A stretch of 64,000 nt of DNA from Natrinema salifodinae (GTDB lineage: Archaea > Halobacteriota > Halobacteria > Halobacteriales > Natrialbaceae): the NCBI RefSeq assembly GCF_900110455.1, contig NZ_FOIS01000005.1:186001-250000 (forward strand), in the 5' to 3' direction. How positions within the stretch are numbered: the first letter of the stretch is position 1; each line of letters starts with the position of its first letter. A program made the position numbers and the translations under genes. A model generated the notes under the pieces. That model saw only the letters and a program-made list of their open reading frames with translations, was not told the origin of the DNA and made no database searches. Below, piece by piece: positions 26,447 through 57,286 of the stretch.

Positions 26447-26471
26447 GCCGCACGTAAATATCACAAATTAG

Positions 26472-35581: not shown

Positions 35582-36451
35582 CTAATCCAGGCCGACGTGG
35601 CGCCGGAACGACTTCTCCGTTAGCCAGGCGCGGTCCGCGTCCGAGAGCGAGTCGACCTCACGGAGCCAGTTTCGGGCCTCGGCGTAGCTCGCGACGTCGC
35701 TCACGTTCGGATAGTCCGATCCCCAGACGACGCGCTCGCGGCCGAACGTCTCGAGGAACCACCGCACGTGATCGTGCATGTCCTCGTACGGAAACGTCGT
35801 CTCCGACATGTGGGGGATCTCCGAGACTTTCACCGCGACGGTGTCGTACGCCGCGAGCTCGGCGAACTGCGCGAACGTCCCCTCGTCGGTCGGCGTGTCC
35901 GGCCCTGCGTGCGCGAAGTGGTCGAACAGGTACGTGAGTTCGGGATACCGTTCGACGAGTTCGAGCGCCTGGTCCAACTGTCGGTGGTCACAGAGGATCT
36001 GGACGGTCGCGTCCGTCTCGACGGCCGCCTCCCAGAACGCCGTCTCCTCGATGGCGTCCCGGAGCCAGGTGACGCTGGGATCGAACGTCTCCCACATTCG
36101 GTCGGAGGGGCAAGCCGCACCGAGGCGGAAGCCGAGGACGCCGTCCGTCGCCAGACAGCGTCGGAGCTGATCGGCCGCGTCCTCGGCGAACGGATCGAGC
36201 ATCACGATACCGTACAGTCGGTCGGACGCCGCGGCGACCCGTCGCGTGTACCAGTTGTCCGTCCAGTCGCAGATCGGATAGCCGACGACGACGGCCTCGT
36301 CGATTCCGTGTCGGTCCATATCGGACAGCAGTCGATCGGCCGTGTAGACCGTGTGGACGTCGAACTCGTCGACGAGATCCAGTATCGGTCCGTTCACCCA
36401 GGGATGGTCCGCGCTCGCTGCGCCCCACGCGTGAGTGTGGGTATCAATCAT
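35582..36451 (-). CDS. COG3618-type amidohydrolase, candidate L-rhamnono-lactonase
   Basis: A 289-residue TIM-barrel metal hydrolase of the amidohydrolase-2 family. The first metal motif DTHTHAWG opens the protein; further ligands lie in LFDHFAHAG (His) and VVWGSDYPN (Asp). The family includes L-rhamnono-1,4-lactonases, L-fuconolactonases and galactarolactone isomerases. It is divergent (78 bases) from RhaM, which favours the rhamnose lactone, though galactarolactone from the uronate route is an alternative. The start at 36451 leads directly into the metal motif; an ATG 21 bases upstream is possible. Confidence 0.85.
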   Translation of the reverse strand: MIDTHTHAWGAASADHPWVNGPILDLVDEFDVHTVYTADRLLSDMDRHGIDEAVVVGYPICDWTDNWYTRRVAAASDRLYGIVMLDPFAEDAADQLRRCLATDGVLGFRLGAACPSDRMWETFDPSVTWLRDAIEETAFWEAAVETDATVQILCDHRQLDQALELVERYPELTYLFDHFAHAGPDTPTDEGTFAQFAELAAYDTVAVKVSEIPHMSETTFPYEDMHDHVRWFLETFGRERVVWGSDYPNVSDVASYAEARNWLREVDSLSDADRAWLTEKSFRRHVGLD

Positions 36452-36475
36452 ACGGGATAGTTGTGTGGTCATCGT

Positions 36476-36505
36476 AGTAAACATTCCCGACGGAAGAACT
36501 AAATC
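36476..36505. promoter_or_regulatory. divergent TATA-like elements for lactonase and RhaM genes
   Basis: Minus-strand GTTTACT (36476-36482) lies 25-31 bases before the lactonase start and plus-strand CTAAATC (36499-36505) 25-31 bases before the RhaM start, both with leaderless spacing. One shared regulator could control both. Confidence 0.5.
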
Positions 36506-36529
36506 GAGACCCGCCGAATCGGGATCCGT

Positions 36530-36832
36530 ATGGAACGAATAGCGTTCCACCTCCGTATCGAGGACGGAAAGCGATCGGCGTATCGAGACGAACACGAGGC
36601 CGTTCCGGACGCGCTCGAGTCGGCGTATCTCGACTCCGACGCTGGGCTGGAGACCTACAGCGTCTTCGAGAAGGACGGCCACGTCTTCGGATACATGGAG
36701 GTCGAGGACCCCGACGCGATCCGCGAGGTCATGGCGGAGAGCGACGCACAGGCGGACTGGGACGAAGTCATGGAGTCGATCCTCGTCGACGAGGACGAGC
36801 CGTGGATGGACGAAGTGTACCGGATGAGTTGA
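36530..36832 (+). CDS. rhaM: L-rhamnose mutarotase
   Basis: A 100-residue protein of the RhaM family, which interconverts alpha and beta anomers of L-rhamnose. RIAFHLRIEDGKRSAYRDEHEAVPDAL holds the active-site His of FHLR and the Y-x-x-x-H motif; YSVFEKDGHVFGYMEVED and the C-terminal PWMDEVYRM are family hallmarks, with W-x-x-x-M at the end. Length matches the usual 100-105 residues. It is divergent from the lactonase-like gene. It is the most specific single marker for L-rhamnose metabolism in the window. Confidence 0.92.
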   Translation: MERIAFHLRIEDGKRSAYRDEHEAVPDALESAYLDSDAGLETYSVFEKDGHVFGYMEVEDPDAIREVMAESDAQADWDEVMESILVDEDEPWMDEVYRMS

Positions 36833-37143
36833 GCGCACCGCGGGATTCGCGCGGCGGAAGCGGGGATCCGGACCCGCTGGGAGTACGCTGTCTCCGCCGT
36901 TCGTTCGCCTAATCCTAGCTGATCGGTGAGTTCGGACATCGCACCCTTCCGGGTATACCGGACAAATTTGTCGAACAGCCGCGAGGACGAGTACTCCGCC
37001 CTCGATCCGCGATACCTCGGGTTTCGGTCCGGTCATCGTTTGCTATCGATGACCTAACAGGCGAGGGAGTCGACGAGGTGTTTTATTCGTATATGTGATA
37101 GTAATAGAATGATGAATATTTGCGCCCGGGTCGGGGGAACAAA

Positions 37144-37157
37144 ACCGAACGTTCGGT
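37144..37157. repeat. ACCGAACGTTCGGT perfect palindrome
   Basis: A 14-bp perfect dyad in the 1.6-kb gap. It may be a protein-binding site or chance in a CG-rich genome. Confidence 0.5.
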
Positions 37158-37560
37158 ATTGCCGGATCGACGTTTCCAGCACCGCTACCGCTTCGTTTCG
37201 GCTAAGACAACACCGTATCGGGACGCGCCGTGGAACAGCGAGCGGACCGATCGAACGACGACGGCGCTGCGGTTGAGTCGCTCGTCGTTTCGACGATTCG
37301 GTCTCCGTGAGCGGTCGCACACATCACAGACGGCGGATGCCAGCGATCGCTATACGACACAGTTCGTTCGGAATCGTTCGGTCGGGCGGCCGATTCGGCC
37401 CACGCTTCGACCGCGCACCCGGTACTGCTCGTCTCGTTCCGATAATAGCGGATACAATTTGCACTAACCGAGCGGTGACGAGGCAAAGTCGACCGCGTCG
37501 GCGCTCAGATCGTCGATGAACCGTCCGGTTCCGATTCGAATTGGTTTTCCGACGGCGTAG

Positions 37561-37584
37561 CTTTACTTTCATATGGTTGTAATA
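37561..37584. promoter_or_regulatory. 24-bp palindrome, candidate operator (copy C, degenerate)
   Basis: CTTTACTTT-CATATG-GTTGTAATA keeps the TTAC and TGTAAT core and the CATATG centre with the same spacing, but the outer arm bases differ. It is the weakest of the five copies and has no start codon of a supported gene within 700 bases. Confidence 0.45.
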
Positions 37585-38416
37585 GAAAGTGATTTTCGGA
37601 CGATTCGGTCCGCTAGGCGGGGACAGCCGCGACGGATCGAGGTCGGTGGGCCGACGGAGACGCAACGAGTTCTGCGAGATGCAGGTCTCTTTCGGCGGTC
37701 CATTCGGTCTACCCGACGATTCGAAGGCACCTGCAGGTCGTTACGCGGCAAATTTGAGCATAGCTGCCCGACCGAACCGGTCGATAGTTCACGGCGACCG
37801 TGCGGTCGTAATGTGCGTTCGATACGGCCGCTCATACTGCACACCAACGAAACGGAGAAGATAACAGTAGATGGTGATGACACGAGAATGATCACGCAGA
37901 TTTTATTTGGGTCGCACTGACCGAAAATTGCTAAAATACGGGTTCGAGGAGCGCGTATCGACGTATTGGGCCTCTTAGATCACTTCTACCGGAAATTCAC
38001 ATAGATATCGTACAGGAATATTCGCAAACGGAGATGGAACGACGAATCAGCTGTTAGAGACCGCCTTTCGAACGTCTCTCCAGAACACGTCGCAACGAGA
38101 ACGATGCTGCCAACTGACCTTCGCTCTATGACGAACCCAGATACCATATTTCAAATATATACTAGAGTGTGGTAAATGAGACGGGTCAAATTTGTTCAGT
38201 GGTATAGTCTCCAGCTCCCATCCGAGCGTCGCTCCGAGCACGGTCGAAGTCAGCAGTCGCCGCTCCGGTCGCTCCGACCCCGAAGGGAGCTTTCGATCAG
38301 GACAAAGACGAAGAACCGGCCGCTCGCGTCTTACGCCCGACTGATCGCTCTCTACTAGCTGCAGCGCAGCACTCTCGACCCCTTCTCGGGCCGACTCGGT
38401 CGGACCGGACGATTTC

Positions 38417-40324
38417 TCACGTCTCGCCAGGCGACTCCGCCCAGGGGAACGCGTAGCTCGGATCGTTCGCGAACCGATCGAGCGACGCCGCGAGCGATAC
38501 CCGGGAACCGCTCGGCAGCGAGACGCGAATCGCGTTCGTCTCGGGACGCCCGCGGTCGTCGCCGGCCTCGACGACCGCGAATTCGTGTTCGCCGTAGGCG
38601 CCGGCCTGAATGATCAGGTCGCGGTCAGCGCCGCCGCCGTTGACTAGCGTGAGGGAGACGCCCTCGCGAGTTACGTCCTCGACGAGCGCGGCGACGCCCG
38701 GCGGGAGCCCCGGGCGCTCGCGCTCGGGGTCGAAGTGGCGAAGCTGAGCCATCACGAGGCCGCCGTAGTAGACCGGCTGGGGCGCACCCATCGTCAGTTG
38801 GAGCAGTCCGCGGTGGAAGACTGGATTCCGATCGCGGAGGTAGTCCTCGTCGACGGCGTCCGGAACGCCGCCTTCCTCGCGCATGAGGTCGCGCTGGGCC
38901 TGCACGTGAGCGTGATTTGCTTCCAGAATCCGCTCGGGGTACTCGGGGAAGTCGCCGTCGAGGAAGGCCAGCCAGGCGTACTCGTGGCCGGCGCCGTGTT
39001 TGTTCGACGGGCGGTAGTCGACCTGCGTCCAGTCCTGTGCGCCCCAGTCGCGGAGCCGATCGACGCGCTCGCGGTCGGCTTCGGAGAGGGACATGTACCA
39101 GAGGTGGAAGACATACGGATCGTCCCGGTGTGGTTTGAACTCGTACCAGCCGTCGCGCCACAGGATCTCCCCGTCGTCCTCGGTGAGCACGCCCGAGGCG
39201 TCGTAGTGGTAGTCGCCGGGGTCGCCGTACTTGTGCGGGACGTACAGCGTGCTGTGGACGGCGTCCTCGCCGACTTCGATTCCGTTCTCGATCAGGACGT
39301 CCAGTTGCGACCGCGGGAACGCCAGGTGCTCTCGGTCGCCGGTCAGCAAGACGGCGTTCTCGGCGGCGACCGTCGGGCCGATTCCGACGTAGTGCCAGCC
39401 GCCCCACGACCAGCCGTAGTAGCCGCCGTACCACGTGCCGTCGGTGTACTCGCCGATCTCGCCCGAGCGGCCGACGTTGTCGGGGACGATCCCGCCGTTT
39501 GCGGCCGTTCGCTCGCGCCAGGCGTCGAGATAGTCGGTGACCCACTCCCGGTACCGGTCGTCGCCGGTGTGGAGGTAGGCGTTGGTCATCAGGCTCGTCA
39601 CGGTGAGGTTCAGCGGGATGTCGCCCTTCGCACACCGCTCGTCGAGCACCTCGAACAGTCGCTCCTCGTTCTCGGGGTCGAGCAACTCGGCGGCGGAATC
39701 GAACTCGAGATCGCGCCAGGGGAGCCCGTGGCTCGCCCAGCGGTAGTCGGCGCCGTACGGGTGGTGTTCGTACGCGGCGAAGTCGCAGAACTCCGGCCCC
39801 ATGCTCCCGGTCATCGGGCCCCGGACGAGTCGTCGCTCGCCGTCGTAGTTGTCCGCGTCGGCCTCGTCGACGTACAACTGCGCGAACCGTTCGGCGCGCT
39901 CGACGACGCGCTCGTCGGTCGGGGCGGCCAGGCCCATGTTGTACGTGAAGAGGTTGCCCTCGCCCATGTGGAACCAGTCGCGACACTGTTCGAACTCGTC
40001 GACGACCATGGGATGGCCGAACGGAGTTTCGGTGGCGGTGCCTCGACGCAGCGCCCCCTCGTAGGCGTCCCGCGCGTGGTCAAGAAACCGGTCGTCGCCG
40101 CCCATCGCGTACACCAGCGGCCAGTTGTAGAACCCCTCGATCAGGTCGTCGAACCCGTCGACGCCGACGTGGTCGTCGGGTGGCCAGTACGGTTCGTCGT
40201 TCGCGTCGAAATACTCGTCGACGAAGTCGCTGACGGCCTCGGCCATCGTTTCGAAGAGGTCGCGTTGCAGTACGGCCCACGCCGGCGGTCGCCGAAGCGA
40301 GTCGCTCGCCTCGATTTCGAACAT
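38417..40324 (-). CDS. unrecognised 635-residue protein, probable alpha-toroid fold
   Basis: I do not recognise this family. It is a long cytoplasmic protein without signal peptide. It is rich in Trp, Tyr and Gly motifs (FYNWPLVYAMGGDDRF, WFHMGEGNLFTYNMGL, GTWYGGYYGWSWGGWHYVG) and has repeated helical-hairpin segments of the kind LMTNAYLHTGDDRYREWVTDYLDAW, as in (alpha/alpha)6 glycosidases and uronate lyases. The last 130 residues look like a beta domain (VSLTLVNGGGADRDLIIQAG). Flanked by RhaM and pectate lyase genes, it may be a new glycosidase or lyase for rhamnogalacturonan oligomers. A TATA element lies 28-36 bases upstream. Confidence 0.75.
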   Translation of the reverse strand: MFEIEASDSLRRPPAWAVLQRDLFETMAEAVSDFVDEYFDANDEPYWPPDDHVGVDGFDDLIEGFYNWPLVYAMGGDDRFLDHARDAYEGALRRGTATETPFGHPMVVDEFEQCRDWFHMGEGNLFTYNMGLAAPTDERVVERAERFAQLYVDEADADNYDGERRLVRGPMTGSMGPEFCDFAAYEHHPYGADYRWASHGLPWRDLEFDSAAELLDPENEERLFEVLDERCAKGDIPLNLTVTSLMTNAYLHTGDDRYREWVTDYLDAWRERTAANGGIVPDNVGRSGEIGEYTDGTWYGGYYGWSWGGWHYVGIGPTVAAENAVLLTGDREHLAFPRSQLDVLIENGIEVGEDAVHSTLYVPHKYGDPGDYHYDASGVLTEDDGEILWRDGWYEFKPHRDDPYVFHLWYMSLSEADRERVDRLRDWGAQDWTQVDYRPSNKHGAGHEYAWLAFLDGDFPEYPERILEANHAHVQAQRDLMREEGGVPDAVDEDYLRDRNPVFHRGLLQLTMGAPQPVYYGGLVMAQLRHFDPERERPGLPPGVAALVEDVTREGVSLTLVNGGGADRDLIIQAGAYGEHEFAVVEAGDDRGRPETNAIRVSLPSGSRVSLAASLDRFANDPSYAFPWAESPGET

Positions 40325-40351
40325 ACGTCATGCCGCGTCGTGCGAGCGGAT

Positions 40352-40360
40352 TAATATTTG
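40352..40360 (-). promoter_or_regulatory. TATA-like promoter element of the 635-residue protein gene
   Basis: On the minus strand AAATATTAA lies 28-36 bases before the ATG at 40324 in a GC-rich region. Confidence 0.5.
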
Positions 40361-40588
40361 GGTCGGCCGCTAGCCGTCGATGTTCCCCTTCGACTCCCAG
40401 ATTTCGGCGACGGGATCGACGAACAGGGCCGTCCGTTTCGGAACCCCATCAGCGGTCGTCTCGTCGAGCGGGCAGTTCACGAGGGTCGCGACGAACTCCC
40501 GCGTGTGAGACGTCTCGCCACCGGCCCGGCGATTCCGATTCGGTTCCGATTCCGGTTCCGGTCGCGGATCGTCCGTCCGATCGGGCCC

Positions 40589-42694
40589 TTATTCGACCGA
40601 TCGCGCCTTCGCGCGGAGCCAGGCGCGCGTGCCGTTCTGCGGAACGTTCACCGGCCGCGTGTTCCGTTCGAGATCGGGATAGCCGCCGACCTCCTCCTGA
40701 CTGTCGATGTACGATCCCTCGCCGGCGCGGACGGACGCGAGGATCCGTTCGTCGTGGGCGGTCCGGTCGGCCGGCCGCGCGCCGGCGTTGGCGAGGTTGT
40801 GGTCGACGACGTCCGCCGAACCGATTGCGTCGAGCGTCGCGGGCCACAGCGGCCGCGAGTCGAGTCGCGTGATCCCGTCGCCGACCATCGGATTGTCCGC
40901 GTCCGCGAGGACGTTGTCCTCGACAGATGCGTCCCCGTCGCCGAAGACGGTGGGCTGGTCGCTGACCGACCGTCGGAAGGCGTTGCTCTCGATGCTCGCC
41001 TTCGTGTCGGGATCCATCCAGATCCCGTCGCTGTAGTGGGAGACGACGTTGTTCGCCACGACGGTCCGGGTCCCCTCCTTGAGCCGCGGGTTGCGGTCGT
41101 AGTTGTGCGCCCAGATGTTGCCCGCGAGCGCGACGGTCTCGGCTCCGTCGCCGATCAGCGAGCCGTACCCGTGATCGCCCTTGTGATGGGTCGCGTCCTG
41201 GAGCGGTTCGGCGATCAGACAGTTCGACACCGTCGTGTTCGCGGTGTCGTAGCCGACCGAGAGGTTCTCGTCGACCGCCCAGGTCGTCGTACAGTGGTCG
41301 ATGACGTTGTTCTCGGTGCCGTCTTCCGTCCTGATCCCGTCGGGCTCCCAGTCGCTCTCCGCCGTCAGGTTCGCGTCGCCAGGCCGGACGCGAACGTGCT
41401 GAACGACGCAGTCACTCGCGTCGATCCAGAGGTCTCCGCGGACGAGCGTGATCCCCGGCGACGGCGCCGTCTGTCCGGCGAGGTAGAGTTCGTCGGTAGG
41501 CACCGTTAGGCGCTGCTCCTGGAGGTCGATGACGCCGCTGGTCTCGAAGACGACCAGGCGCGGGCCGTCGACGCCGACCGCGGCCGAGAGTTGGCGCCGC
41601 GTCGGCTCGGTCACTTTGATGATCGGCGTGTCGTCGTCTACCCACGGGGCCGGATCGGCGAACCCGTCGGCGAGGTCGACCCGCGACGCGCTCGACGGCC
41701 CGTCGTCGGTCGTCCGGCCGTTCGAGCGCCCGGGCGTTCCGACGGTCTCGGACGATCCGACCGCGACGTCGCCGTCGCTCGTCTCGATGACCGCGCGGTA
41801 CTCGTAGTACCGCCTGCTCGTGAGGTCGTCGAGACGGACGCGGAACTCGCCTGGCGCCTCGAGCGTCCGCGCGGCGGTCCTCGTCCACGATTCGGTCGGT
41901 ACCTCCCGGTATTCGACGTAGCAGTCGGCCGAGTCGGCTCCGCCCAGGTCGGTCACGTCGCCGCGGACGGTCGCCCCCGTAGCCGTCACGTCGGCCGCGT
42001 CGCCCGTCGTGACGAACGGAACGCCCTCCTCGACGTCGACGCCGCCGGCGATCTCGACGTCGCCGATATCGCGGTTGGCGGCCGGCTCGATCCCCGTCAG
42101 GTCGCGCAGTTCGGCGGTACAGAGTTCGCCGACGTTGTGGCTCGTGACCGGCAGTCCGACGTACGCTCGGTCGCTCAACTCGACGTGGGTCGCGTCGATA
42201 TCGGCGATCAGCGTCCAGTCGTCGCCGTCGCTCGAGCCGTACGCTTCGAAGACGTCGCCGTCGCGGCGCAGGCGCAGCCACTCCGCAGCGAGGCTGCCGC
42301 CGGCGACCTCGCTCTCGTCCTCGCCGCCCGACGTCGTGCTGACCGTCTCGGCGCCGTCCGCAGGTCGCCACTGCAGGGACGCCTCGCCGTTCGGCGTCCG
42401 CCGGAGCATCACGTTCTTCGCCGCGGGGTCGAGCGACTCGCGGACCATGATACCTGTCTTCGCGTTGGGATCGGTGTCCTCCAACGCGGTATTTCGTACC
42501 CGTACGTCGAAGTCGCCGCTGACTTCGTCGTGGTAGAAGTGGAACGCGTCTTCCGTGCTCCAGATGTCCGCGCCGCCGCCGCGGACCGTGATGATCGTCG
42601 CCGCTGCGGCCGCGCCGCTGAACAACGTCGCAGCGGTCAACCCGAGACTCCCCGCACTAACCGTTCGAAGGAACGATCGCCTATCGTGTGCCAT
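40589..42694 (-). CDS. exported multidomain PL1-type pectate lyase
   Basis: A 701-residue secreted enzyme. RRSFLRTVSAGSLG at residues 4-17 is a Tat signal with an AAAA-type cleavage region. Residues about 35-165 form a laminin-G-like/DUF1349-type sugar-binding domain (GIMVRESLDPAAKNVMLRRTPNG), about 205-290 an Fn3-like domain, and about 330-700 a right-handed beta helix. The helix shares AGQTAPSPGITLVRGDLWI, CVVQHVRVRPGD and NPRLKEGTRTVVANNVV with the lyase at 59351; NPRLK-x8-NN fits the catalytic arginine region of PL1. It would cut polygalacturonate outside the cell. Confidence 0.85.
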   Translation of the reverse strand: MAHDRRSFLRTVSAGSLGLTAATLFSGAAAAATIITVRGGGADIWSTEDAFHFYHDEVSGDFDVRVRNTALEDTDPNAKTGIMVRESLDPAAKNVMLRRTPNGEASLQWRPADGAETVSTTSGGEDESEVAGGSLAAEWLRLRRDGDVFEAYGSSDGDDWTLIADIDATHVELSDRAYVGLPVTSHNVGELCTAELRDLTGIEPAANRDIGDVEIAGGVDVEEGVPFVTTGDAADVTATGATVRGDVTDLGGADSADCYVEYREVPTESWTRTAARTLEAPGEFRVRLDDLTSRRYYEYRAVIETSDGDVAVGSSETVGTPGRSNGRTTDDGPSSASRVDLADGFADPAPWVDDDTPIIKVTEPTRRQLSAAVGVDGPRLVVFETSGVIDLQEQRLTVPTDELYLAGQTAPSPGITLVRGDLWIDASDCVVQHVRVRPGDANLTAESDWEPDGIRTEDGTENNVIDHCTTTWAVDENLSVGYDTANTTVSNCLIAEPLQDATHHKGDHGYGSLIGDGAETVALAGNIWAHNYDRNPRLKEGTRTVVANNVVSHYSDGIWMDPDTKASIESNAFRRSVSDQPTVFGDGDASVEDNVLADADNPMVGDGITRLDSRPLWPATLDAIGSADVVDHNLANAGARPADRTAHDERILASVRAGEGSYIDSQEEVGGYPDLERNTRPVNVPQNGTRAWLRAKARSVE

Positions 42695-42904: not shown

Positions 42905-43699
42905 CTACGAGAACTTGGTGTTGAGTTCGATGACGTTCGCGGCCCGGTGGACGCTGTCGGCGAGTTCGCCGTGCAGGTAATCGTCGGTGATCCGACTGAC
43001 CGGCCCGGTGACGCTGACCGCGCCGAGCACCGTGTTGGCGCTTTTGACCGGTGCGGCGACGCACCGGAGCCCCTCGATATTCTCCTCGTCGTCGATCGCG
43101 TAGCCCCGGTCGGCGATCGCGGCGAGTTCCTCGGAGAGGGCCTCGGCGTCCGTGATCGTCGTCGGCGTCTTCGGAGTAAACGACATGTCGCCGATGATCG
43201 CTTCGCGGCGGTCGGGCGAGAGAAACGCCAGGATAGCCTTTCCGAGGGACGTCGAGTACATGGGCTGGCTGCCGCCGGGGCGGGACACCGTCTCGACCGC
43301 CTGGTTACCCATCGCCTTGTAGAGGTACGCGACGTGGCCGCGTTCTTCGAGGCCGAACTGGGCGATCTCACCCGTTTCGGCCGCCAGCTTGTCGACTTCG
43401 TCGACGATCACCTCGTAGTTGCCGACCTGGTCGCGGACGTCGTTCGCCATGTCCAGAACCTGGAGGCTCAGCCGGTAGCCGTCGCCGTGGCGAACGATGA
43501 CCCCCTGGCTCTCCAAGGTCTGCAGGTGGCTGTGGATCGTGCTCTTCGAGTGGCCGAGTTCCTCGGCCAGTTCGGTTACGCTGCTCTGTTCGTTCTTTCG
43601 CACGGCGTCGAGGACGGTAAAGGCGATCTCGACCGACTGGATCCGACGACCGCTACGTTCGTTGCCGCGACCGGCGCGTTCGTTGGGGGCGTTTGCCAT
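42905..43699 (-). CDS. IclR family transcriptional regulator
   Basis: A 264-residue regulator. The winged helix is at about residues 18-75 (SVTELAEELGHSKSTIHSHLQTLESQGVIVR), and the IclR effector domain follows (TGEIAQFGLEERGHVAYLYK, SLGKAILAFLSP, LGAVSVTGP). Start 43699 is preferred over an upstream in-frame ATG because it follows the direct repeat and opens the usual hydrophilic tail. It is divergent from the PL2-GH4-GH28 cluster, and copy D of the 24-bp palindrome lies between them, making this the prime candidate for the regulator that binds it. Confidence 0.92.
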   Translation of the reverse strand: MANAPNERAGRGNERSGRRIQSVEIAFTVLDAVRKNEQSSVTELAEELGHSKSTIHSHLQTLESQGVIVRHGDGYRLSLQVLDMANDVRDQVGNYEVIVDEVDKLAAETGEIAQFGLEERGHVAYLYKAMGNQAVETVSRPGGSQPMYSTSLGKAILAFLSPDRREAIIGDMSFTPKTPTTITDAEALSEELAAIADRGYAIDDEENIEGLRCVAAPVKSANTVLGAVSVTGPVSRITDDYLHGELADSVHRAANVIELNTKFS

Positions 43700-43718
43700 A
43701 GTACATGATACCATAGTA
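43696..43718. repeat. CCATAGTA direct repeat at the IclR start
   Basis: Two exact CCATAGTA copies (43696-43703 and 43711-43718) spaced by 15 bases overlap the start codon of the IclR gene. The position would suit autoregulation. Confidence 0.5.
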
Positions 43719-44161
43719 ATCCCACATAAGTTTGTTCCCCACAAGGGAACTCTCACGGCCCTCGCCGGGACGCACTCGAGTCGCTCCATTCACGTCGCAT
43801 ACGCTCGGTCGCCGTTCGGTTCACGCGACCGGTACGTCCCGCGAGACGACGTAATCGATTCCCGATCATCCCGCAGGTGCCACACTCGAATCGCTTCGAG
43901 GTTCCCCTCTAGCGAACACCGCCAAGGAACGAACACGGCCGTTTTGGCCCTCGTTAGCGCCAGGTTCTGGGATTTCAGTATCAGCGTCGAGCCGACTCCG
44001 GCGATAACGCGCCGACGGGCGACCGCTCCGGCGCACTGTGATTACGATCATACGGCTGTAATCGTTCGGTGAAGGGGAACCAGTCGAATCCGACTCCGCT
44101 CGCCTGGCGAGGGACCGCGACCCGAACGTCCAAGTGCCCGGCAGTGGACCGGTGGCGTACG
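43700..44161. other. divergent regulatory region (IclR / pectate lyase cluster)
   Basis: This 462-base gap holds the direct repeat at the IclR start and copy D of the 24-bp palindrome at 44040-44063. No gene is seen in it; the rest is GC-rich and unremarkable. Confidence 0.6.
44040..44063. promoter_or_regulatory. 24-bp palindrome, candidate operator (copy D)
   Basis: GATTACG-n2-CATACG-n2-TGTAATC, about 100 bases upstream of the pectate lyase start at 44162 and 340 bases upstream of the divergent IclR gene. This is the copy whose location most directly suggests control of a pectin operon. Confidence 0.65.
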
Positions 44162-45739
44162 ATGGCCAGGGACCAGGCCGCGGCGCTGATCGATGCCGTC
44201 CGCCGACACGTCGACGCGGTTCTCGCTACCGGCCGGGATCGGTACGGCGACGCCGAGACGCCGCTGTTCGCCGATGCGATCGACCCGGTCGCCGGCGAGG
44301 CAGTGGCCTACGACGCTCGCGACGTCGCGCCGGATCGACGGCGACGGCTGTCGAACACCGCCGTCCAGCAGGAATTTCTCCGGACGCTCGTCGCGCTCGG
44401 TCGGCTCACCGGCGACGAGCGGTACCGGGGTGCGGCCGTCGGGGTCGTCGAGTGGGTGTTCGACCACCTCACGGGCGCCCGCGGGCTCCCCTACTGGGGC
44501 GGCCACGTGGCCTACGACCTCGACGCCGACGTGACGGCGACAAACAAGGACGGCCCGCACGAACTGAAGTTCGAGTACCCGTTCTACGACCTGTTCTGGG
44601 ACGTCGACCCCGCGGCGACGCGGCGGCTCGTCGAGGCGTTCTGGCGCGCCCACGTCTGCGACTGGTCGATCCTCGATTTCAACCGCCACGGCGACTTCGA
44701 CGGCCGGTCGTTCGGCGGACGTGATCCCGTCGATCGAGCCGACGAAGCAAGCGACGGCCCCTGGAACCGCGCGTACGAGGGCGGCGACGTCTTCTTCTGG
44801 GGCGACGGGCTGACCTTCGTCAACACCGGCAGCGACCTCTACTACGCCGCGGCTCTCCTGGCCGACCTCGCCGGCGACGCCGAGCCGCTGCGCTGGGCCC
44901 GGCGCCTGGCCCGCCGCTACGTCGAGACCCGCGGGGAGACGGGCATCAGCGGCTACCAGTTCAGCCAGCACCCGAGCTACTGTAATGGCCCGGAGATCCG
45001 CGGCGATCGGGCGCAGTACCAGTTCGCGCCGTACATTCCCGGCGACCATCGGATCTACGAGGGGACGCTGTTCCGGCCGCGGCCGATCGTCCAGCGCCGG
45101 CAGCTGGAACTCGGCGCGCGGCTCGGCGACCGGGGCGCGGCGTTCGCGACGTGGGCGGTCGAGGAGTTGCGCGCCTGGCGCGAGGCGGCCTACCGGCCGG
45201 AGCGCAACGACTTCGAGCCGATGCTGACCGACGGGTTCAGCCTGGAGGGGTTCGTCGTCCGCCGCGAGGGGTACTTCGGCCCCAAGGGGCGCGTGATCGG
45301 GCCCATCGAGGCCGACGCCGACTTCCTGTGGGCGTACGCGATGGCGTTCCGGGTCGCCGGCGACGACGTCTGTTGGCGGACCGCTCGCGACATCGCGCGG
45401 GGGCTCGGCCTGGGCGACATCGGTTCGCCTGGCGGCGACGGAGCCGCCCTTGCGACCGATCCGGACCTCGCGGACGTCCGGGCGGTGTACGGGCTGTTGG
45501 AACTCCACCGCGCGACGGATCGCGACGCCTATCTCGACGCCGCAGCCAGCGTCGGCGCGAACCTCAGCGAAGCGCGAACGGCCGACGAGGGCCCGTTCGT
45601 CGACGACGCGGGCCGGATCGTCCTCGAGGATCCGACCCCGTTGGCGCTGTTGCACCTGGCGGCGGCGCTTCGCGACGACGATCGAACGCGCCTTCCGACG
45701 CCCGTCGGCGACCGTCGATCGCCCGAGGGCGGCGTGTAG
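44162..45739 (+). CDS. cytoplasmic pectate lyase, family PL2-like (exopolygalacturonate lyase)
   Basis: A 525-residue protein without a signal peptide. The order QQEFLRTLVALGRLTGDERYRGAA, LPYWGGHVAYDLD, KDGPHELKFEYPFYDLF and FWRAHVCDWSILDFNRHGDFD resembles the alpha-barrel pectate lyases of family 2 (periplasmic or cytoplasmic exo-enzymes that use His/Glu metal ligands and a catalytic Arg). It would degrade imported oligogalacturonides. GH4 and GH28 genes follow (gaps 108 and 93 bases). The start at 44162 is chosen because the upstream extension is basic and lacks homology-like features. The PL2 call rests on motif memory and is moderate. Confidence 0.7.
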   Translation: MARDQAAALIDAVRRHVDAVLATGRDRYGDAETPLFADAIDPVAGEAVAYDARDVAPDRRRRLSNTAVQQEFLRTLVALGRLTGDERYRGAAVGVVEWVFDHLTGARGLPYWGGHVAYDLDADVTATNKDGPHELKFEYPFYDLFWDVDPAATRRLVEAFWRAHVCDWSILDFNRHGDFDGRSFGGRDPVDRADEASDGPWNRAYEGGDVFFWGDGLTFVNTGSDLYYAAALLADLAGDAEPLRWARRLARRYVETRGETGISGYQFSQHPSYCNGPEIRGDRAQYQFAPYIPGDHRIYEGTLFRPRPIVQRRQLELGARLGDRGAAFATWAVEELRAWREAAYRPERNDFEPMLTDGFSLEGFVVRREGYFGPKGRVIGPIEADADFLWAYAMAFRVAGDDVCWRTARDIARGLGLGDIGSPGGDGAALATDPDLADVRAVYGLLELHRATDRDAYLDAAASVGANLSEARTADEGPFVDDAGRIVLEDPTPLALLHLAAALRDDDRTRLPTPVGDRRSPEGGV

Positions 45740-45847
45740 GTGCCCGAATCCGGCAGGATCGGTCCGAACGCCAACGCTTTTGACGCGGTCCGTCCGGGTG
45801 TACGTATGCATCAACTCGGCAGTCGTTCGAGCGACGGGACCCCCCGC

Positions 45848-47227
45848 ATGAAGATCGGATACGTTGGAGGCGGGAGCCAGGGCTGGGCCCACACCCTCAT
45901 CAACGACCTCGCCCAGTGTGAGGACGTCGCCGGGACGGTGGCGCTGTACGACGTCGATTACGAGGCTGCGGCCGCAAACGCGAAATTGGGAAACCGGGTC
46001 GTCGATCGCGCGGACGCCGACGGCGACTGGACGTTCGAGGCGGTCCGCGAACTGGACGACGCGCTTTCGGACGCCGACTTCGTCGTCTGCTCGATCCAGG
46101 ATCCCCCGGAAGAGACCTTCGTCCACGACATCGACCTCCCGAAGCGGTACGGCATCCACCAGCCGGTCGCCGACACCGTCGGCCCGGGCGGCACGCTGCG
46201 CGCGATGCGGGCGATCCCCCAGTACCGCGAGATCGCGGCGACGGTCCGCGAGCGGTGTCCCGACGCGTGGGTGATCAACTACACGAACCCGATGACCGTC
46301 TGTACGCGGACCCTCTACGAGGAGTTCCCCGAGATCAAGGCGATCGGGCTCTGTCACGAGGTGTTCCAGCTTCAGGAGCTGTTCGCCGAAATCGCAGAGC
46401 GGCACCTCGAGGAGGCCGACGACGTCAATCGCGAGGAGATCCACGTGAATGTCAAGGGGATTAACCACTTCACCTGGATCGACGAAGCGCGCTGGCGCGG
46501 TCGCGACCTCTACCGGTTCCTCGACGACGAACTCGAGGCCCGGAAACCCCTGAACGACTTCGAACCGGGCGCGATGGCCGACGCGTCCTACTGGGTCACC
46601 AACTACCGCGTCGCGTTCGATCTCTACGACCGGTTCGGCGCGCTGCCCGCGGCCGGCGACCGCCACCTCGTCGAGTTCGTCCCGTGGTACCTCGACCTCG
46701 ACGACCCCGAGGAGCTCCACCGGTGGGGAATTCGGTTCACGCCGAGTTCGGCCAGGCGCCCCGACGAGGGTCCGAGTCAGACCGAGCGGTACCTCTCGGG
46801 GGAGGACGCCTTCGAACTCTCCGAGTCGGGCGAGGAACTCGTCGACATCGTGCGGGCGCTGCTGGGACTCGAACCCGTCGAGACGCACCTGAACTACCCC
46901 AACGAGGGACAGATGGCCGACCTCCCCGAAGGTGCCGTAGTCGAGACGAACGCGTTGCTCACCGGCGATGACGTCTCGCCGCTGACCGCCGGCTCGCTCC
47001 CGGACGAGGTCCGATCGATGGTGGAGACCCACGTGACGAACCAGAAGACGCTCGTCGAGGCCGGCTTCGACGGCGACCTCGACCGGGCGTTCCGGGCGTT
47101 CCTGAACGATCCGCTCGTGACGATCGATCGGGCGGCGGCTGCGGCCCTGTTCACCGACCTGGTCGAGCGCGAGCGCGAGTACCTCGGTGCGTGGAATCTC
47201 GAGAAATCGGAAGTGCTCTCGTCGTAA
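45848..47227 (+). CDS. GH4 alpha-galacturonidase
   Basis: A 459-residue NAD- and metal-dependent glycosidase. The N-terminus MKIGYVGGGSQGW is the GH4 Rossmann motif; NYTNPMTVCTR and GINHFTW are conserved; the metal-site motif is CHEV near residues 168-171. The CHEV variant is the published hallmark of GH4 alpha-galacturonidases, which release galacturonate from oligogalacturonides. No signal peptide, so cytoplasmic. An in-frame ATG at 45806, 28 bases after a TATA-like CTTTTG, could be the real start of a leaderless transcript and would add 14 residues. It lies between the PL2-like and GH28 genes. Confidence 0.88.
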   Translation: MKIGYVGGGSQGWAHTLINDLAQCEDVAGTVALYDVDYEAAAANAKLGNRVVDRADADGDWTFEAVRELDDALSDADFVVCSIQDPPEETFVHDIDLPKRYGIHQPVADTVGPGGTLRAMRAIPQYREIAATVRERCPDAWVINYTNPMTVCTRTLYEEFPEIKAIGLCHEVFQLQELFAEIAERHLEEADDVNREEIHVNVKGINHFTWIDEARWRGRDLYRFLDDELEARKPLNDFEPGAMADASYWVTNYRVAFDLYDRFGALPAAGDRHLVEFVPWYLDLDDPEELHRWGIRFTPSSARRPDEGPSQTERYLSGEDAFELSESGEELVDIVRALLGLEPVETHLNYPNEGQMADLPEGAVVETNALLTGDDVSPLTAGSLPDEVRSMVETHVTNQKTLVEAGFDGDLDRAFRAFLNDPLVTIDRAAAAALFTDLVEREREYLGAWNLEKSEVLSS

Positions 47228-47290
47228 ATCGTGAGCGAGAGTCGCGATCCGTCGCAGCCGACTCGGCGACGGGTCGCCGGCGACACAACG

Positions 47291-47297
47291 TTTATTT
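47291..47297 (+). promoter_or_regulatory. TATA-like promoter element of the GH28 gene
   Basis: TTTATTT lies 24-30 bases before the ATG at 47321 and supports that start over the upstream in-frame ATG at 47231. Confidence 0.55.
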
Positions 47298-47320
47298 CCG
47301 TACTCCGAAATATCCAGACG

Positions 47321-48877
47321 ATGGCAGTACCTGGCACGGACCGGTTCGACATCCGCGAGTACGGCGCAATCAGCGACTCCGAGGACCCCGACACCGACGC
47401 GATCCAGGCGGCACTCGACGAGTGCGCCGCGGCCGGCGGCACGGTGTACGTCCCCAACGGAACCTACGTGACCGCGCCGCTCCGGGTCGGCGACGACACG
47501 ACACTCCACTTGGACGCGGGCGCGACGCTCCGGTTCGTCGGCGACTACGACGCGTTCCCGACGGTCGAGAGCCGCTGGGAGGGCTGGGATCAGATCGGAT
47601 TTCACCCCTGCCTGCTCGTCGACGGAGTCGAGAACGTCTCGATCACCGGCCGCGGAACGATCGACGGCAACGGCGCGTACTGGTGGCAGTTCTACGACGC
47701 GCCCGAGTCGGACCTCCCCGACGGACTGCGGGAGCGCCTGGCGGAGTTCGAGGAGCGAAACGATAAACAAGACGACGTCAGCAGTTTCACCCACCGGCCG
47801 CCGCTGTTCCAGATTGCCGAGTCCGAGAACGTCAGCGTTTCGGGCGTGACCCTGCGGAACTCGCCGTTCTGGAACACGCACGTCGTCTACTCGGAGAACG
47901 TCACGCTCCACGACGTCAACGTCGAGAACCCGGCGGACGCGCCCAACGGCGACGGGATCGACATCGACTCCTCGCGGTACGTTCGGATCAGCGACACCTA
48001 CATCAACGCGGGCGACGACGCGATCTGCATCAAGTCCGGGAAGAACGCAGAGGGCCGCGAGGTCGGCGAACCCGCCTCGCAGATCACCGTCACCAACTGC
48101 ACGGTCGAGGCGGGCCACGGCGGCGTCGTCATCGGCAGCGAGATGTCCGGCGACGTCCGGGACGTGACGGTCACCAACTGCACGTTCACCGACACCGACC
48201 GCGGCGTCCGGATCAAGACCCAGCGCGACCGCGGCGGCGTCGTCGAGGACCTCCGGTTCGACAACATCGTCATGCGGCGGATCGCCTGCCCGTTCGTCAT
48301 CAACGGCTACTACTTCACCCCGCTGGACAGCGATCCCGAACCGGTCGACGAGGGGACGCCGATGGTCCGGAACGTCTCCTTCACGAACATCACCGCCCGC
48401 GAGGTCGAGACCGCCGGCTTCTTCGCCGGCCTCCCCGAGCGGTACTTCGAGGGGATCTCGTTTCGCGACGTACAGATCGACGCGACCAGGCCGCTCGACG
48501 CGACGGACCTCGATCCGGCAATGGCGTACGACTACGAACAGGGACACGGACTGTTCTGCAAGTCGATCGCCGACATCTCGTTTACCGACGTTCGGATCCG
48601 GACCCCGGAGAGCGACGGGCCGGCGATGCGGTTCGAAGAGACCGACGACGTGACGATCGACGGACTGCGGGTTCCGGACTCGCGGGCCGCGCCCGTCGTC
48701 TCGCTGACGGACGTCGGGACGACCCGCGTCCGCGGTTGTTCGCCGCAAGCGGAGGGGCCGTTCCTTCGCGCGAGCGGCGCGGATACGGACACGATCTCAC
48801 TCGCCGGTAACCACGGCTCGCTGGCCGAGGCCGTCGAGGTCGACGACGACAGCGAGGCGACGATCGAACGGTCCTGA
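47321..48877 (+). CDS. GH28 polygalacturonase-like glycosidase (no signal peptide)
   Basis: A 518-residue right-handed beta-helix glycosidase. All GH28 landmarks are present: NGDGIDIDSS near residue 209, GDDAICIKSG near 230, GHGGVVIGSEMSG near 265 and RIKT near 297; these carry the catalytic aspartates, the His and the substrate-binding Arg/Lys. It hydrolyses alpha-1,4-galacturonate links, and cytoplasmic homologues act as exo-enzymes on oligomers. The start at 47321 lies 24-30 bases after a TATA element; no signal peptide follows from any start. It is the third gene of the PL2-GH4-GH28 cluster and may have its own promoter. Confidence 0.92.
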   Translation: MAVPGTDRFDIREYGAISDSEDPDTDAIQAALDECAAAGGTVYVPNGTYVTAPLRVGDDTTLHLDAGATLRFVGDYDAFPTVESRWEGWDQIGFHPCLLVDGVENVSITGRGTIDGNGAYWWQFYDAPESDLPDGLRERLAEFEERNDKQDDVSSFTHRPPLFQIAESENVSVSGVTLRNSPFWNTHVVYSENVTLHDVNVENPADAPNGDGIDIDSSRYVRISDTYINAGDDAICIKSGKNAEGREVGEPASQITVTNCTVEAGHGGVVIGSEMSGDVRDVTVTNCTFTDTDRGVRIKTQRDRGGVVEDLRFDNIVMRRIACPFVINGYYFTPLDSDPEPVDEGTPMVRNVSFTNITAREVETAGFFAGLPERYFEGISFRDVQIDATRPLDATDLDPAMAYDYEQGHGLFCKSIADISFTDVRIRTPESDGPAMRFEETDDVTIDGLRVPDSRAAPVVSLTDVGTTRVRGCSPQAEGPFLRASGADTDTISLAGNHGSLAEAVEVDDDSEATIERS

Positions 48878-48970
48878 ACGGCGGTCCCGACGACGAGCCG
48901 GAACGGCGGTTCGACGCCGCTCCGGCAGCGATCTGGCGTCGTTCGCAGTCGCGAGATGATTGAACAAAAC

Positions 48971-48977
48971 AATTATA
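48971..48977 (+). promoter_or_regulatory. TATA-like promoter element of the Gfo gene at 49007
   Basis: AATTATA lies 30-36 bases before the chosen ATG, while the upstream ATG at 48992 would be only about 15 bases away. Confidence 0.45.
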
Positions 48978-49006
48978 GGGAGATTGCCTGTATGCGTGAC
49001 TACGAC

Positions 49007-50065
49007 ATGGTCGATTCATCCGAAGCCGATCTCCGCGTCGGACTCGTCGGGCTCGGGAGCCTCGGCGTCCGACTCGGACGACAGTTCGACGCCGTGCCGA
49101 ACGCCGAGCTGGTCGCGCTGGCCGACGTCAACGAGGCGAACCTGGCCGACGCGGGCCGCGAACTCGGGGTCGCGGCTGCGGGCCGGTACACCGACTACGA
49201 GACGATGCTCGACGAGGCCGCCCTCGATGCGGCGGCGATCGCCACGCCGAACGGCCTCCACTACGACCAGGCGGTCGCCGCCCTCGAGCGCGACCTCCAC
49301 GTCCTCTGCGAGAAGCCGCTCGCGACCTCCGTCGAGGACGCGCGCGATCTCTATCAGCGCGATCGGGCGACCGACCGGGTGATGATGCTCGGCTACCAGC
49401 GCCACCTGAACCCCGCGTTCGTCATGGCCCGTGAGCGATTGGCGGAAGGAGACAGCGACCCGACGTTCATCACCGGCGAGATCACCCACGACTGGCGCTC
49501 GTACTACGAGACCATGGACGACTGGCGGATGGACCCCGAACTGAGCGGCGGCGGCCACCTCCTGAACGTCGGCTCGCACGTCATCGACGCGATCCTCTGG
49601 GTGACCGGCCTCACTCCGACCAGCGTCGACGCGACCGTAGAGTTCCACGACGACGAACAGATATTCGACAAACAGTCGTCGATCACCATCGAGTTCGAGA
49701 ACGGCGCGGTCGCTAACGTCTCGGACACGGGGATCGTCGCGTGCACCCGCGAACACATCCACATCTGGGACGACGAGGGCGCCGTCTACCTCGAGGGCCG
49801 CGAGTGGGACGAGCGCACCGGCTACACGATCGACGCCGAGGGGACCGAACGCGACCCGTACCTCGACTATCAGGGCCGGCAGACCAAGGCCGAGGCGTTC
49901 GCCGAGGCGGTGCGCGAGGGAACCGAGCCCCCGATCACGGTCCGGGACGCGTTCCGAACGATCGTCGTCACGATGGCCGCCTACGAGTCCGGTCGCACCA
50001 ACGAGCGTATCGACCTCGCCGAGCGGTACGGGTTTACGGACGCGGACGGTAGCCTGATCGGCTGA
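49007..50065 (+). CDS. Gfo/Idh/MocA family oxidoreductase
   Basis: A 352-residue NAD(P)-dependent oxidoreductase. Rossmann motif VGLVGLGSLG near residues 11-20, LCEKPLATS near 98, and the GGGHLLNVGSHVIDA segment with the D/H-type catalytic region near 180-195. It belongs to a different subgroup from the proteins at 1458 and 4533. The start at 49007 suits the TATA spacing; ATGs at 48956 and 48992 are alternatives. It follows GH28 on the same strand. Unknown substrate; conversion of a galacturonate or unsaturated uronate derivative is possible. Confidence 0.9.
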   Translation: MVDSSEADLRVGLVGLGSLGVRLGRQFDAVPNAELVALADVNEANLADAGRELGVAAAGRYTDYETMLDEAALDAAAIATPNGLHYDQAVAALERDLHVLCEKPLATSVEDARDLYQRDRATDRVMMLGYQRHLNPAFVMARERLAEGDSDPTFITGEITHDWRSYYETMDDWRMDPELSGGGHLLNVGSHVIDAILWVTGLTPTSVDATVEFHDDEQIFDKQSSITIEFENGAVANVSDTGIVACTREHIHIWDDEGAVYLEGREWDERTGYTIDAEGTERDPYLDYQGRQTKAEAFAEAVREGTEPPITVRDAFRTIVVTMAAYESGRTNERIDLAERYGFTDADGSLIG

Positions 50066-51082: not shown

Positions 51083-52534
51083 ATGTCGACAGTACACCGT
51101 AACTACGTCGATGGAGAGTGGGTCGAATCGCGGTCCGGAGACACGTTCGAGGTGTTGAATCCCGCGAATACGGGCGACGTCGTCGGGGAGTTCCAGTCGT
51201 CGACGAGCGAGGATGCCGAAGCGGCGATCGATGCTGCGGTTGCGACGCAAGACGAGTGGGCGACGACGCCCGGGCCGGAGCGGGGAGCGATCCTCACCGA
51301 GACGGCGCAGTTGCTCGACGAACGGAAGGACGAACTGACAGAGACGCTCACCCGCGAGGAGGGGAAGACGCTCGATGAGGCCGGCGGCGAGGTCCAACGT
51401 GCGATCGATATCTTCCGCTACTACGGGGAGAAGGCCCGCGACCTCGGCGGCACCGTCAAGTCGCCCGGCGGGACGGACACGGAGCTGTACACCAAGCGCG
51501 AGCCGCTGGGAACCGTCTCGCTGATCACGCCGTGGAACTACCCGATCGCGATCCCGGCCTGGAAGCTCGCACCCGCGCTGGCGGCCGGCAACACGGCGGT
51601 GCTCAAACCCGCGTCCGCGGCGCCGACCGTCTCCTGGAAGCTGTTCGAGGCCCTCGACGAGGCGGGACTGCCCGACGGCGTCGCCAACTACGTCACCGGC
51701 TCCGGCAGCGAGGTCGGCCGGCCGCTCACCGATCACGAGGACGTCGACGCCGTCTCCTTTACCGGTAGCACGGCGGTCGGAACCGCCGTCGCGCAGGCCG
51801 CCGCCGACGACCTCAAACGCGTCCAGTGCGAGATGGGCGGCAAGAACCCGACGGTCGTCATGCCCAGCGCCGACGTCGACCAGGCGGTCGACATCGTCGG
51901 CGCCGGTGCGTTCGGCGTCACCGGCCAGGCGTGTACCGCCTGCTCCCGGGCGATCGTCCACGAGGACGTCTACGACGAGTTCGTCGCGGGGATCGCCGAC
52001 TACGCCGAGTCGATCGAGATCGGCCCCGGGCTGGAGAACCCAGACATGGGCCCCCACGTCACAAGTAGCGAACTCGAGTCGACGCTGGAGTACGTCGACG
52101 TCGCGGACGACGAGGGGGCGACCCTCGAGACCGGCGGGCAGCGGCTCACCGGCGACGAGTACGACGATGGCTACTACGTCGAGCCGGCCGTCTTCTCGGA
52201 CGTGACAGGCGACATGCGCATCGCCACGGAGGAGGTCTTCGGCCCCGTCCTAGCGGTGCTGAAAGTCGAGAGCTTCGAGGAGGCGGTCGCCGTCGCGAAC
52301 GACGTCGAGTACGGCCTCTCGGCGAGCATCGTCACGCAGGATCTCACCGAGGCCAACCGGTTCGCCGATCGCGTCGAGTCGGGCGTCGCGAAGGTCAACG
52401 AGAAGACGACCGGCCTCGAACTCCACGTTCCCTTCGGCGGCTACAAGCAGTCCTCGACGGACACCTACCGCGAACAGGGCGACGCCGGCCTCGACTTCTT
52501 CACGTCGACGAAGACGGTCTACATGAACTACTGA
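51083..52534 (+). CDS. aldehyde dehydrogenase, probable 2-oxoglutarate semialdehyde dehydrogenase
   Basis: A 483-residue NAD(P)-dependent aldehyde dehydrogenase. PWNYP near 150, VSFTGST near 230, the general-base Glu in CEMGGKNP near 248 and the catalytic Cys in GQACTACSR near 282 are intact, and EEVFGPVLAV is conserved. Length is typical. In haloarchaea a close type (XacF) oxidises 2-oxoglutarate semialdehyde in pentose breakdown; the same reaction finishes the oxidative uronate pathway whose other enzymes are nearby (52697, 54097, 56208). Substrate assignment is from context. Confidence 0.9.
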   Translation: MSTVHRNYVDGEWVESRSGDTFEVLNPANTGDVVGEFQSSTSEDAEAAIDAAVATQDEWATTPGPERGAILTETAQLLDERKDELTETLTREEGKTLDEAGGEVQRAIDIFRYYGEKARDLGGTVKSPGGTDTELYTKREPLGTVSLITPWNYPIAIPAWKLAPALAAGNTAVLKPASAAPTVSWKLFEALDEAGLPDGVANYVTGSGSEVGRPLTDHEDVDAVSFTGSTAVGTAVAQAAADDLKRVQCEMGGKNPTVVMPSADVDQAVDIVGAGAFGVTGQACTACSRAIVHEDVYDEFVAGIADYAESIEIGPGLENPDMGPHVTSSELESTLEYVDVADDEGATLETGGQRLTGDEYDDGYYVEPAVFSDVTGDMRIATEEVFGPVLAVLKVESFEEAVAVANDVEYGLSASIVTQDLTEANRFADRVESGVAKVNEKTTGLELHVPFGGYKQSSTDTYREQGDAGLDFFTSTKTVYMNY

Positions 52535-55230: not shown

Positions 55231-55475
55231 AGGGAACACGACAGAGCCGCGACCAATATAGCTTGCGTTGGGACGGCCCTCGAAGGATTCGCGTATCGCG
55301 GAACTGCTCGCGCCGGCCGTCACGAACCCGTGGAGATCGTCGCTGATCTCGGCGACGAGCACGACGTCTCGCTTCCGGCGTCGTCGGACGCTGCCGGAGA
55401 GCCGTCGCTCCTGTACCGAATCGATCGGAGAGGGCAATGCGTGCCCCCTCACAGCGGTGAGATCCATATGCGAAC

Positions 55476-55502
55476 CATTCGCGCTATTCGCGCCATTCGC
55501 GT
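55476..55502. repeat. three adjacent ATTCGCG repeats
   Basis: ATTCGCG occurs three times at 9-10 base spacing within the non-coding region upstream of the dehydratase. Likely replication slippage. Confidence 0.6.
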
Positions 55503-56067
55503 CCGGCAGTATCAAACATCGAGAGGGTATCCTCGTCGGAAAACGGGATCGCTCGACGTTGCGGGACCAGCCGCGGCTCGAGACGGTGATCGGGCAGTCC
55601 TACGCCTCGCACTCACTCCGCTCGATCGACGCAGCACCCGTCGTCTCGTGCTACGTTCGAGCGAGAGCGTATTTCGTTCCCCGTGGAGGAACAACCGCTG
55701 GGATTCGACCGGGTATCGGAGACGGCCGGTGGCTTCTCCGACCGTACCGGACGATCGGACGAAACGACTCGAGCAGCCAATCTATCCTATCGCTACCGCA
55801 TAGCCTGTTCTCTGGTCGGGAACAAACGACCGGCAGTTCAGCGTCGACCCACGGCTGATCGGCCGTCGGGCGAGATGCTCTCGTTTCGATTCGGGCCGTT
55901 ACGGCCCGCTCGACCGGCTCGCAGACCGCCGAACGTCGCGAGTGACGGTATTTCCGTATCGCGAATTCACGAGTGGTGGCCGCGTCGAGCCGGATCCGCC
56001 GGTTCGACGGCGGAATCACCGACTAGACGCCGAGAGCCGAACCGGGGTACTCGGTATCGGCCATTTG

Positions 56068-56091
56068 GTTTACAACCATATGTTCGTAATC
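56068..56091. promoter_or_regulatory. 24-bp palindrome, candidate operator (copy E)
   Basis: GTTTACA-n2-CATATG-n2-CGTAATC, centred 128 bases upstream of the KdgD-like start, with a weak TATA-like CTTTTAC (about 56172) between them. The upstream-of-TATA position would suit an activator. Confidence 0.6.
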
Positions 56092-56207
56092 CAGAAACGG
56101 ATCCGGGCTGCCATTCGTTCGGCAGGAGGGAACGAGAATGCGCTTCCCCGCTGCGATCGTTGTGGACCGAACACTTTTACTGGATGATTGTGTTTTTCCA
56201 GTGGAAC

Positions 56208-57240: not shown

Positions 57241-57286
57241 TTGATATATGTGGGGTTTTAATAACTATAGCGTGGCGATCAGTTCC

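Follow-up and report, generated by a model that had tools for sequence, protein, structure and literature searches.

What reaction is carried out by a 635-residue protein that lies among pectinase and sugar-acid genes of the haloarchaeon Natrinema salifodinae and resembles no named family? The protein, here designated P0001, is encoded in a 64,000-nucleotide stretch (the window; positions 186,001 to 250,000 of contig NZ_FOIS01000005.1), and a preliminary description made from the sequence alone had proposed that it may found a new carbohydrate-active family. It is judged here about an even chance that P0001 does so, the family extending through haloarchaea and several bacterial phyla and performing an uncatalogued uronide-directed chemistry, as a uronidase, a uronate dehydratase or a 3-keto-uronide enzyme working with ThuA and Gfo/Idh proteins.

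The gene and its reading frame

The P0001 open reading frame begins with ATG, has its stop inside 38417-40324 of the minus strand, and is present once in this genome by a search of the 4.27-Mb assembly (window on contig C5). Haloarchaeal orthologs are 65-85% identical to it. Codon differences from the ortholog of a same-genus genome (L002 of G375) number 58, 49 and 180 at positions 1, 2 and 3; third positions likewise hold most of the differences from four orthologs, with NG86 dN/dS values of 0.09/0.51 to 0.18/0.74, or ~0.15-0.24. Because differences concentrate at codon position 3 and dN/dS is low, the frame is the true coding frame, and 38417-40324 (minus strand) is established as a genuine coding gene under purifying selection. 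An Rfam scan of 36900-40700 gave no match, and a tRNA scan of the window found none. The 1.38 kb downstream of the gene (37037-38416), also without an Rfam match, contains no open reading frame of at least 120 residues and has a G+C content of 0.55 as against ~0.67 in the gene; it may be a decayed insertion.

Absence from named families

The statement that P0001 matches no recognized family holds against the collections searched. P0001 has no Pfam or NCBIfam match at E<=1, and its best match to PDB sequences, none of which rose above threshold, is a chance one (E 0.91). A profile of 40 family members found no PDB sequence at E<=10. Scanned singly against Pfam, the 40 members gave scattered weak matches, to DUF5810 (E 0.002, three members), the C5-epimerase C-terminus (0.07), GH88 (0.08) and alginate lyase (0.12), and their NCBIfam scan gave noise only; neither P0001 nor its 39 relatives thus has a Pfam, NCBIfam or PDB-sequence match above threshold. 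Public plasmid records with gene annotation over a family match label the gene "hypothetical protein", a literature search for the accessions of two homologs found no mention of them, and viral contigs contained no relatives. It is established that P0001 is without a name in the Pfam, NCBIfam and PDB sequences searched, and the family is new in sequence but known in fold, its newness being relative to these three collections rather than to CAZy/dbCAN models.

Predicted fold and conserved residues

An AlphaFold model of P0001 (mean pLDDT 79, pTM 0.85) shows helical hairpins to about residue 520 followed by eight strands at 525-616, in agreement with the helical hairpins, alpha toroid and C-terminal beta domain originally anticipated; loops 115-131, 170-201 and 297-308 have pLDDT below 50. 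Foldseek places the model nearest to GH146 (1.5e-5), AGE-type (3.7e-5) and GH127 (6e-5) structures, then GH76 and UGL, and VIA-align, in which helical proteins can reach Z 10-12 through common helical arrangement alone, gives GH47 10.7, GH76 10.5, AGE 10.4, UGL 9.9, GH105 9.6 and PL2 9.3 (5a29). A model of an Acidobacteria relative of ~37% identity (pLDDT 72, pTM 0.81) matches GH76 (Z 11.8), GH47 (11.3) and UGL (10.4) by VIA-align, and GH76 and GH127 by Foldseek. For both models the 50 best structural matches are almost wholly six-hairpin-type toroids (GH76, GH47, GH88, GH127/146, AGE), none of them close; a BFVD fold search gave no match. The toroid fold is supported because the two models agree, and the family is with moderate confidence predicted to be an alpha/alpha toroid of six-hairpin type with a C-terminal beta sandwich. 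No single toroid family is singled out, since the matches have Z of 10-12 with rmsd of 4-6 and low full-length TM-scores (0.2-0.4), and many families tie within 1 Z in VIA-align. Neither a confident match to a non-carbohydrate family nor a fold unrelated to alpha toroids, the two outcomes that the preliminary description set against its own proposal, was found.

Several known families share parts of this architecture. The GH127/GH146 beta-L-arabinofuranosidases combine toroid and beta domains as P0001 does and supply the best Foldseek E value, but are 10-12% identical to it with TM 0.2-0.3 and no Pfam match at E<=1. The GH76 and GH47 mannosidases rank first by VIA-align Z (GH76 for the Acidobacteria relative, GH47 for P0001), but at rmsd 4.4-5.3 and with no sequence-family match. 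The PL2 pectate lyase, a neighbor of P0001 in the window, also has the toroid fold in common with it, but there is no Pfam match to PF06917 and hhalign to the window's own PL2 gives a probability of 0.7%. Profile comparisons of the family with GH78 and GH28 were not significant. Toroid folds include hydrolases, lyases, dehydratases and isomerases, and the fold therefore does not fix the reaction.

Residues invariant in the 40 archaeal and bacterial members include W16, R21, Y38, D59, D60, E63, W68, D116, H119, E122, N159, D235, W261, Y265, W269, R272, W298, W305, R338, R529, D532, N562, E579 and H580 (Table 1). The aromatic clusters remarked on at the outset are real: in the loop W298-YGGYYGWSWGGWHY, W298, G304 and W305 are invariant. 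Conservation suggests D59, D60, E63, D116, E122 and D235 as candidate catalytic carboxylates; the candidate active-site loops have pLDDT below 50 in the model.

Table 1. Features of the P0001 gene, its product and its neighbors, with positions in the window
Feature	Position	Strand	Basis
Unnamed alpha-toroid family protein P0001	38417-40324	-	ORF, orthologs, purifying selection
Predicted alpha/alpha toroid domain, residues ~13-520	38765-40288	-	AlphaFold model and fold matches
Predicted beta sandwich at the C-terminus (residues ~525-622), including the invariant GAYGEH motif region	38459-38752	-	Conservation; eight strands, mostly above pLDDT 90
Invariant acidic cluster D59-D60-x-x-E63, candidate active-site loop	40136-40150	-	No variation across the 40 archaeal and bacterial members
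D116-W-x-H119-x-x-E122 motif, candidate active-site loop	39959-39979	-	D116, H119, E122 invariant in 40 members
N159-Y160-D161 motif	39842-39850	-	N159 invariant, Y160/D161 nearly so
Invariant D235 ahead of inner helix	39620-39622	-	Conservation and model
Aromatic loop W298-W307 (WYGGYYGWSW)	39404-39433	-	W298, G304, W305 invariant
GAYGEH motif in beta domain	38585-38602	-	G575, E579, H580 invariant
Amidohydro_2, probable sugar lactonase, downstream on same strand	35582-37036	-	PF04909; also beside Nonomuraea family gene
Pectate-lyase/beta-helix gene with DUF1349 and apparent Tat signal, upstream of P0001 gene	40589-42814	-	Weak Pfam matches Beta_helix, DUF1349, Pectate_lyase_4; neighbor cluster kept in 13/29 loci
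IclR-family regulator	42905-43789	-	Neighbor in 14/29 loci
PL2 pectate lyase	44069-45739	+	PF06917, E 2e-156
GH4 glycosidase	45740-47227	+	PF02056/PF11975
GH28	47231-48877	+	PF00295, E 3e-49
Gfo/Idh/MocA oxidoreductase	48956-50065	+	PF01408; neighbor in 9/29 loci
2,5-dioxovalerate dehydrogenase, final step of oxidative galacturonate route	51083-52534	+	NF052305, 865 bits vs cut-off 750
Epimerase-fold SDR, probable uronate dehydrogenase	52697-53536	-	PF01370
MR_MLE dehydratase, probable galactarate dehydratase (putative substrate)	54097-55515	-	PF13378/PF02746
Putative DHDPS/KdgD-like gene	55683-57143	+	Weak BLAST match to bacterial KdgD and DHDPS proteins
Pectinesterase	57248-58414	+	PF01095, E 2e-71

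Genomic neighborhood

The gene does sit between rhamnose and pectate-lyase genes, as first described, with a pectate-lyase-like gene upstream and a probable rhamnose-type lactonase downstream. The Amidohydro_2 lactonase is accompanied downstream by lactate-utilization-like genes, and on what we take to be the haloarchaeal course of L-rhamnose degradation this set suggests rhamnose use, so that rhamnogalacturonan I (RG-I) is a plausible source of substrate. The window also carries a GH78 gene, beside the PL1-like, PL2, GH4, GH28 and pectinesterase genes, and appears to encode an oxidative galacturonate route consisting of 2,5-dioxovalerate dehydrogenase together with a uronate-dehydrogenase-like SDR, an MR_MLE dehydratase and a DHDPS/KdgD-like protein in their probable roles. 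Elsewhere in the window, 21570-23429 (plus strand) encodes a 619-residue exported protein whose BNR_4 domain (PF15892, E 1e-62) is of the kind found in ulvan/rhamnogalacturonan-type lyases, and 25319-26464 (minus strand) a 381-residue probable lipoprotein/Tat protein without a Pfam match at E<=0.01 that adjoins a sugar ABC transporter.

Across 29 haloarchaeal loci the neighbors are ThuA (17), IclR (14), DHDPS/KdgD-like (14), MR_MLE (14 and 12), GH4 (13), PL1-like (13) and GH28 (11) genes. In 9/29 loci a same-strand DHDPS gene immediately precedes the family member, in 10/29 a same-strand ThuA gene adjoins it, and in 3/29 a GH28 gene comes immediately downstream. The ThuA-domain protein (PF06283; L038:10366-11148 and 16 other loci) is the commonest haloarchaeal neighbor of the family; none was found within 12 kb of the P0001 gene in the window. 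In Asticcacaulis the genes of an exported member and an MFS transporter are arranged head-to-tail, with an MR_MLE dehydratase and a KdgD over the NCBIfam cut-off close by, and Sphingobium has the same set, with MFS transporter, TonB, LysR and KdgD neighbors; the Nonomuraea locus holds MR_MLE, DHDPS, Amidohydro_2 and sugar ABC transporter genes. Gfo/Idh-like genes also occur near bacterial members, and Acidobacteria members have no clear CAZyme neighborhood. The galactonate/galactarate region of Asticcacaulis that holds the family relative also encodes a 693-residue protein without a Pfam match (L061:28116-30197). Genomic linkage thus ties the family to pectinases and sugar-acid catabolism, and context and fold together make it likely that P0001 acts on uronides.

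Distribution and descent

Of the 391 Halobacteria genomes sampled, 32 hold relatives of P0001. Thirty loci were found in genome contigs, including those of Paenibacillus koleovorans (43%), a Latescibacterota MAG (33%) and an Acidobacteria MAG (32%), and plasmid records add relatives in Nonomuraea, Streptomyces, Asticcacaulis and Sphingobium (30-38%); the family therefore spans Halobacteria, Paenibacillus, Actinomycetota, Alphaproteobacteria, Latescibacterota and Acidobacteriota. It is present in 9 of 297 sampled Acidobacteria genomes, some with several paralogs, and in 1 of 299 Bacilli genomes, the query genome itself; a Latescibacterota genome has a tandem pair. In a FastTree phylogeny the haloarchaeal sequences form one clade (support 0.975) that is sister to Paenibacillus (1.0), a placement that suggests gene transfer from bacteria into haloarchaea. 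Fragments or frame-broken remnants of the family are present in G143, G163, G191, G356 and L030, in some cases with an intact copy at another place in the same genome, and suggest that it has been repeatedly lost in relatives. Many Acidobacteria and proteobacterial members have apparent signal peptides at the N-terminus; archaeal, Paenibacillus and actinobacterial members have none apparent.

The suggested GH88/GH105 gap

The preliminary description saw no GH88/GH105 unsaturated galacturonyl hydrolase elsewhere in the window, and read this as a functional opening for P0001. The absence is confirmed among the window genes scanned and extends to the whole genome, which lacks PF07470 (GH88/105) as well as PL22, DUF2264 and KduI. 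The opening itself stands for this genome, which is without GH88/105, PL22 and KduI, but not for the family at large: GH88/105 over the Pfam cut-off is present in 23/32 family carriers, 0/20 related non-carriers and 7/80 sampled non-carriers, and four haloarchaea with PL2 have neither the P0001 family nor GH88/105. P0001 as a general replacement for GH88/105 is rejected, since most carriers hold both. The window genome is an exception among carriers, as are three genomes of another genus (g4: G185, G230, G350). KduI (PF04962) is essentially absent from the 76 haloarchaea checked, including those with GH88/105, so that its absence here is not specific and a haloarchaeal unsaturated-uronate route must use another isomerase or path.

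Candidate reactions

The explanation favored here, tentatively and at somewhat less than an even chance, is that P0001 is a cytoplasmic toroid enzyme acting on short uronides of pectin (homogalacturonan or RG-I) as an exo-uronidase that would release saturated D-galacturonate. The PL and GH pectinases would yield short uronic-acid oligosaccharides, P0001 would hydrolyze these from the non-reducing end, and the saturated D-galacturonate so released would enter the neighboring oxidative pathway to 2-oxoglutarate; in proteobacteria the exported enzyme would release the acid, the MFS transporter import it and the KdgD route oxidize it. This fits best because a cytoplasmic protein adjoins both oligosaccharide-cleaving enzymes and an oxidative pathway for saturated galacturonate. 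The saturated route is further favored by the want of GH88/105, PL22 and KduI in the genome; against it, the PL2 of the window would make unsaturated ends, and the Acidobacteria members stand in no clear CAZyme neighborhood.

Those ends are the substrate in an unlikely alternative, by which P0001 fills the GH88/GH105 role and cleaves the 4,5-unsaturated galacturonyl residues left by PL2 and PL1. PL2 is not only close by but commoner with the family (7/32 carriers against 4/359 others, p 3e-6), neither GH88/105 nor PL22 is present in the genome, and the fold matches include UGL structures (Z 9.9-10.4). The families also have the alpha toroid and uronide context in common and often occur in the same genomes; however, P0001-family proteins are ~270 residues longer and carry an additional beta domain at the C-terminus, none of the family's 40 members matches PF07470 over threshold (best single E 0.08, 1/40), and hhalign with haloarchaeal GH88/105 is not significant (probability 4%). 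The carriers that already hold GH88/105, the four PL2 haloarchaea with neither, and the absence of the usual next enzyme, KduI, although nearly all haloarchaea lack it, also weigh against such a hydrolase. A distinctly unlikely alternative turns the co-occurrence to account: a uronate dehydratase like GH154 or P29_PDnc would take water off a saturated non-reducing-end uronate and leave a 4,5-unsaturated end for GH88/105, strong matches to which are found in 20/32 carriers against 3/80 sampled non-carriers (Fisher p 4e-11, uncorrected for ancestry). Beta-elimination is among the chemistries that toroid folds support, similar co-occurrence reasoning preceded the reassignment of GH154 as a uronate dehydratase (PMC12269599), and P29_PDnc is an unrelated uronate-dehydratase precedent (PMC8511951). 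The co-occurrence is nevertheless confounded by ancestry and large CAZyme replicons, and the window genome and the three g4 genomes, being without GH88/105, have no known enzyme for the product. DUF2264 (PF10022), which we take to be GH154, is like P0001 in its length in haloarchaea (608-634 residues) and its uronate-degrading genomes, but there is no Pfam match and hhalign to haloarchaeal members gives a probability of 1.7%.

Least probable of the readings is an isomerase, epimerase or other non-depolymerizing enzyme that would act on a free sugar acid or 3-keto sugar together with ThuA and Gfo/Idh. The frequency of ThuA as adjacent gene (17/29 loci), Gfo/Idh in 9/29, the Gfo/Idh-like genes near bacterial members, and the AGE, YihS and mannose isomerase folds among the structural matches are consistent with it. 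To N-acylglucosamine 2-epimerase/YihS-type isomerases, however, there is fold resemblance only and no Pfam match, and P0001, with ~630 residues and a C-terminal beta sandwich, contrasts with AGE enzymes of roughly 400 residues. The apparent signal peptides of many bacterial members and the several Acidobacteria paralogs suggest action on imported polymer, and a depolymerizing enzyme such as the favored exo-uronidase fits these better than a metabolic isomerase does.

Significance

Caution on a pectin-use reading is advised because haloarchaea with pectinase genes, including AArc-m2/3/4, failed in published tests to grow on pectin, polygalacturonate or rhamnogalacturonan (PMC9726719); AArc-m2/3/4 itself carries the P0001 family (L053). 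The family bears on why such pectinase-carrying haloarchaea showed no growth on pectin, as well as on how pectinase-carrying haloarchaea without GH88/105, PL22 and KduI handle uronide oligosaccharides. The reaction is open to direct testing, as many cultured strains have an intact copy of the gene and there are bacterial versions that are exported. P0001 represents a concrete enzyme family, which the public records consulted annotate as hypothetical protein and which gene order ties to galacturonate catabolism in both archaea and bacteria.
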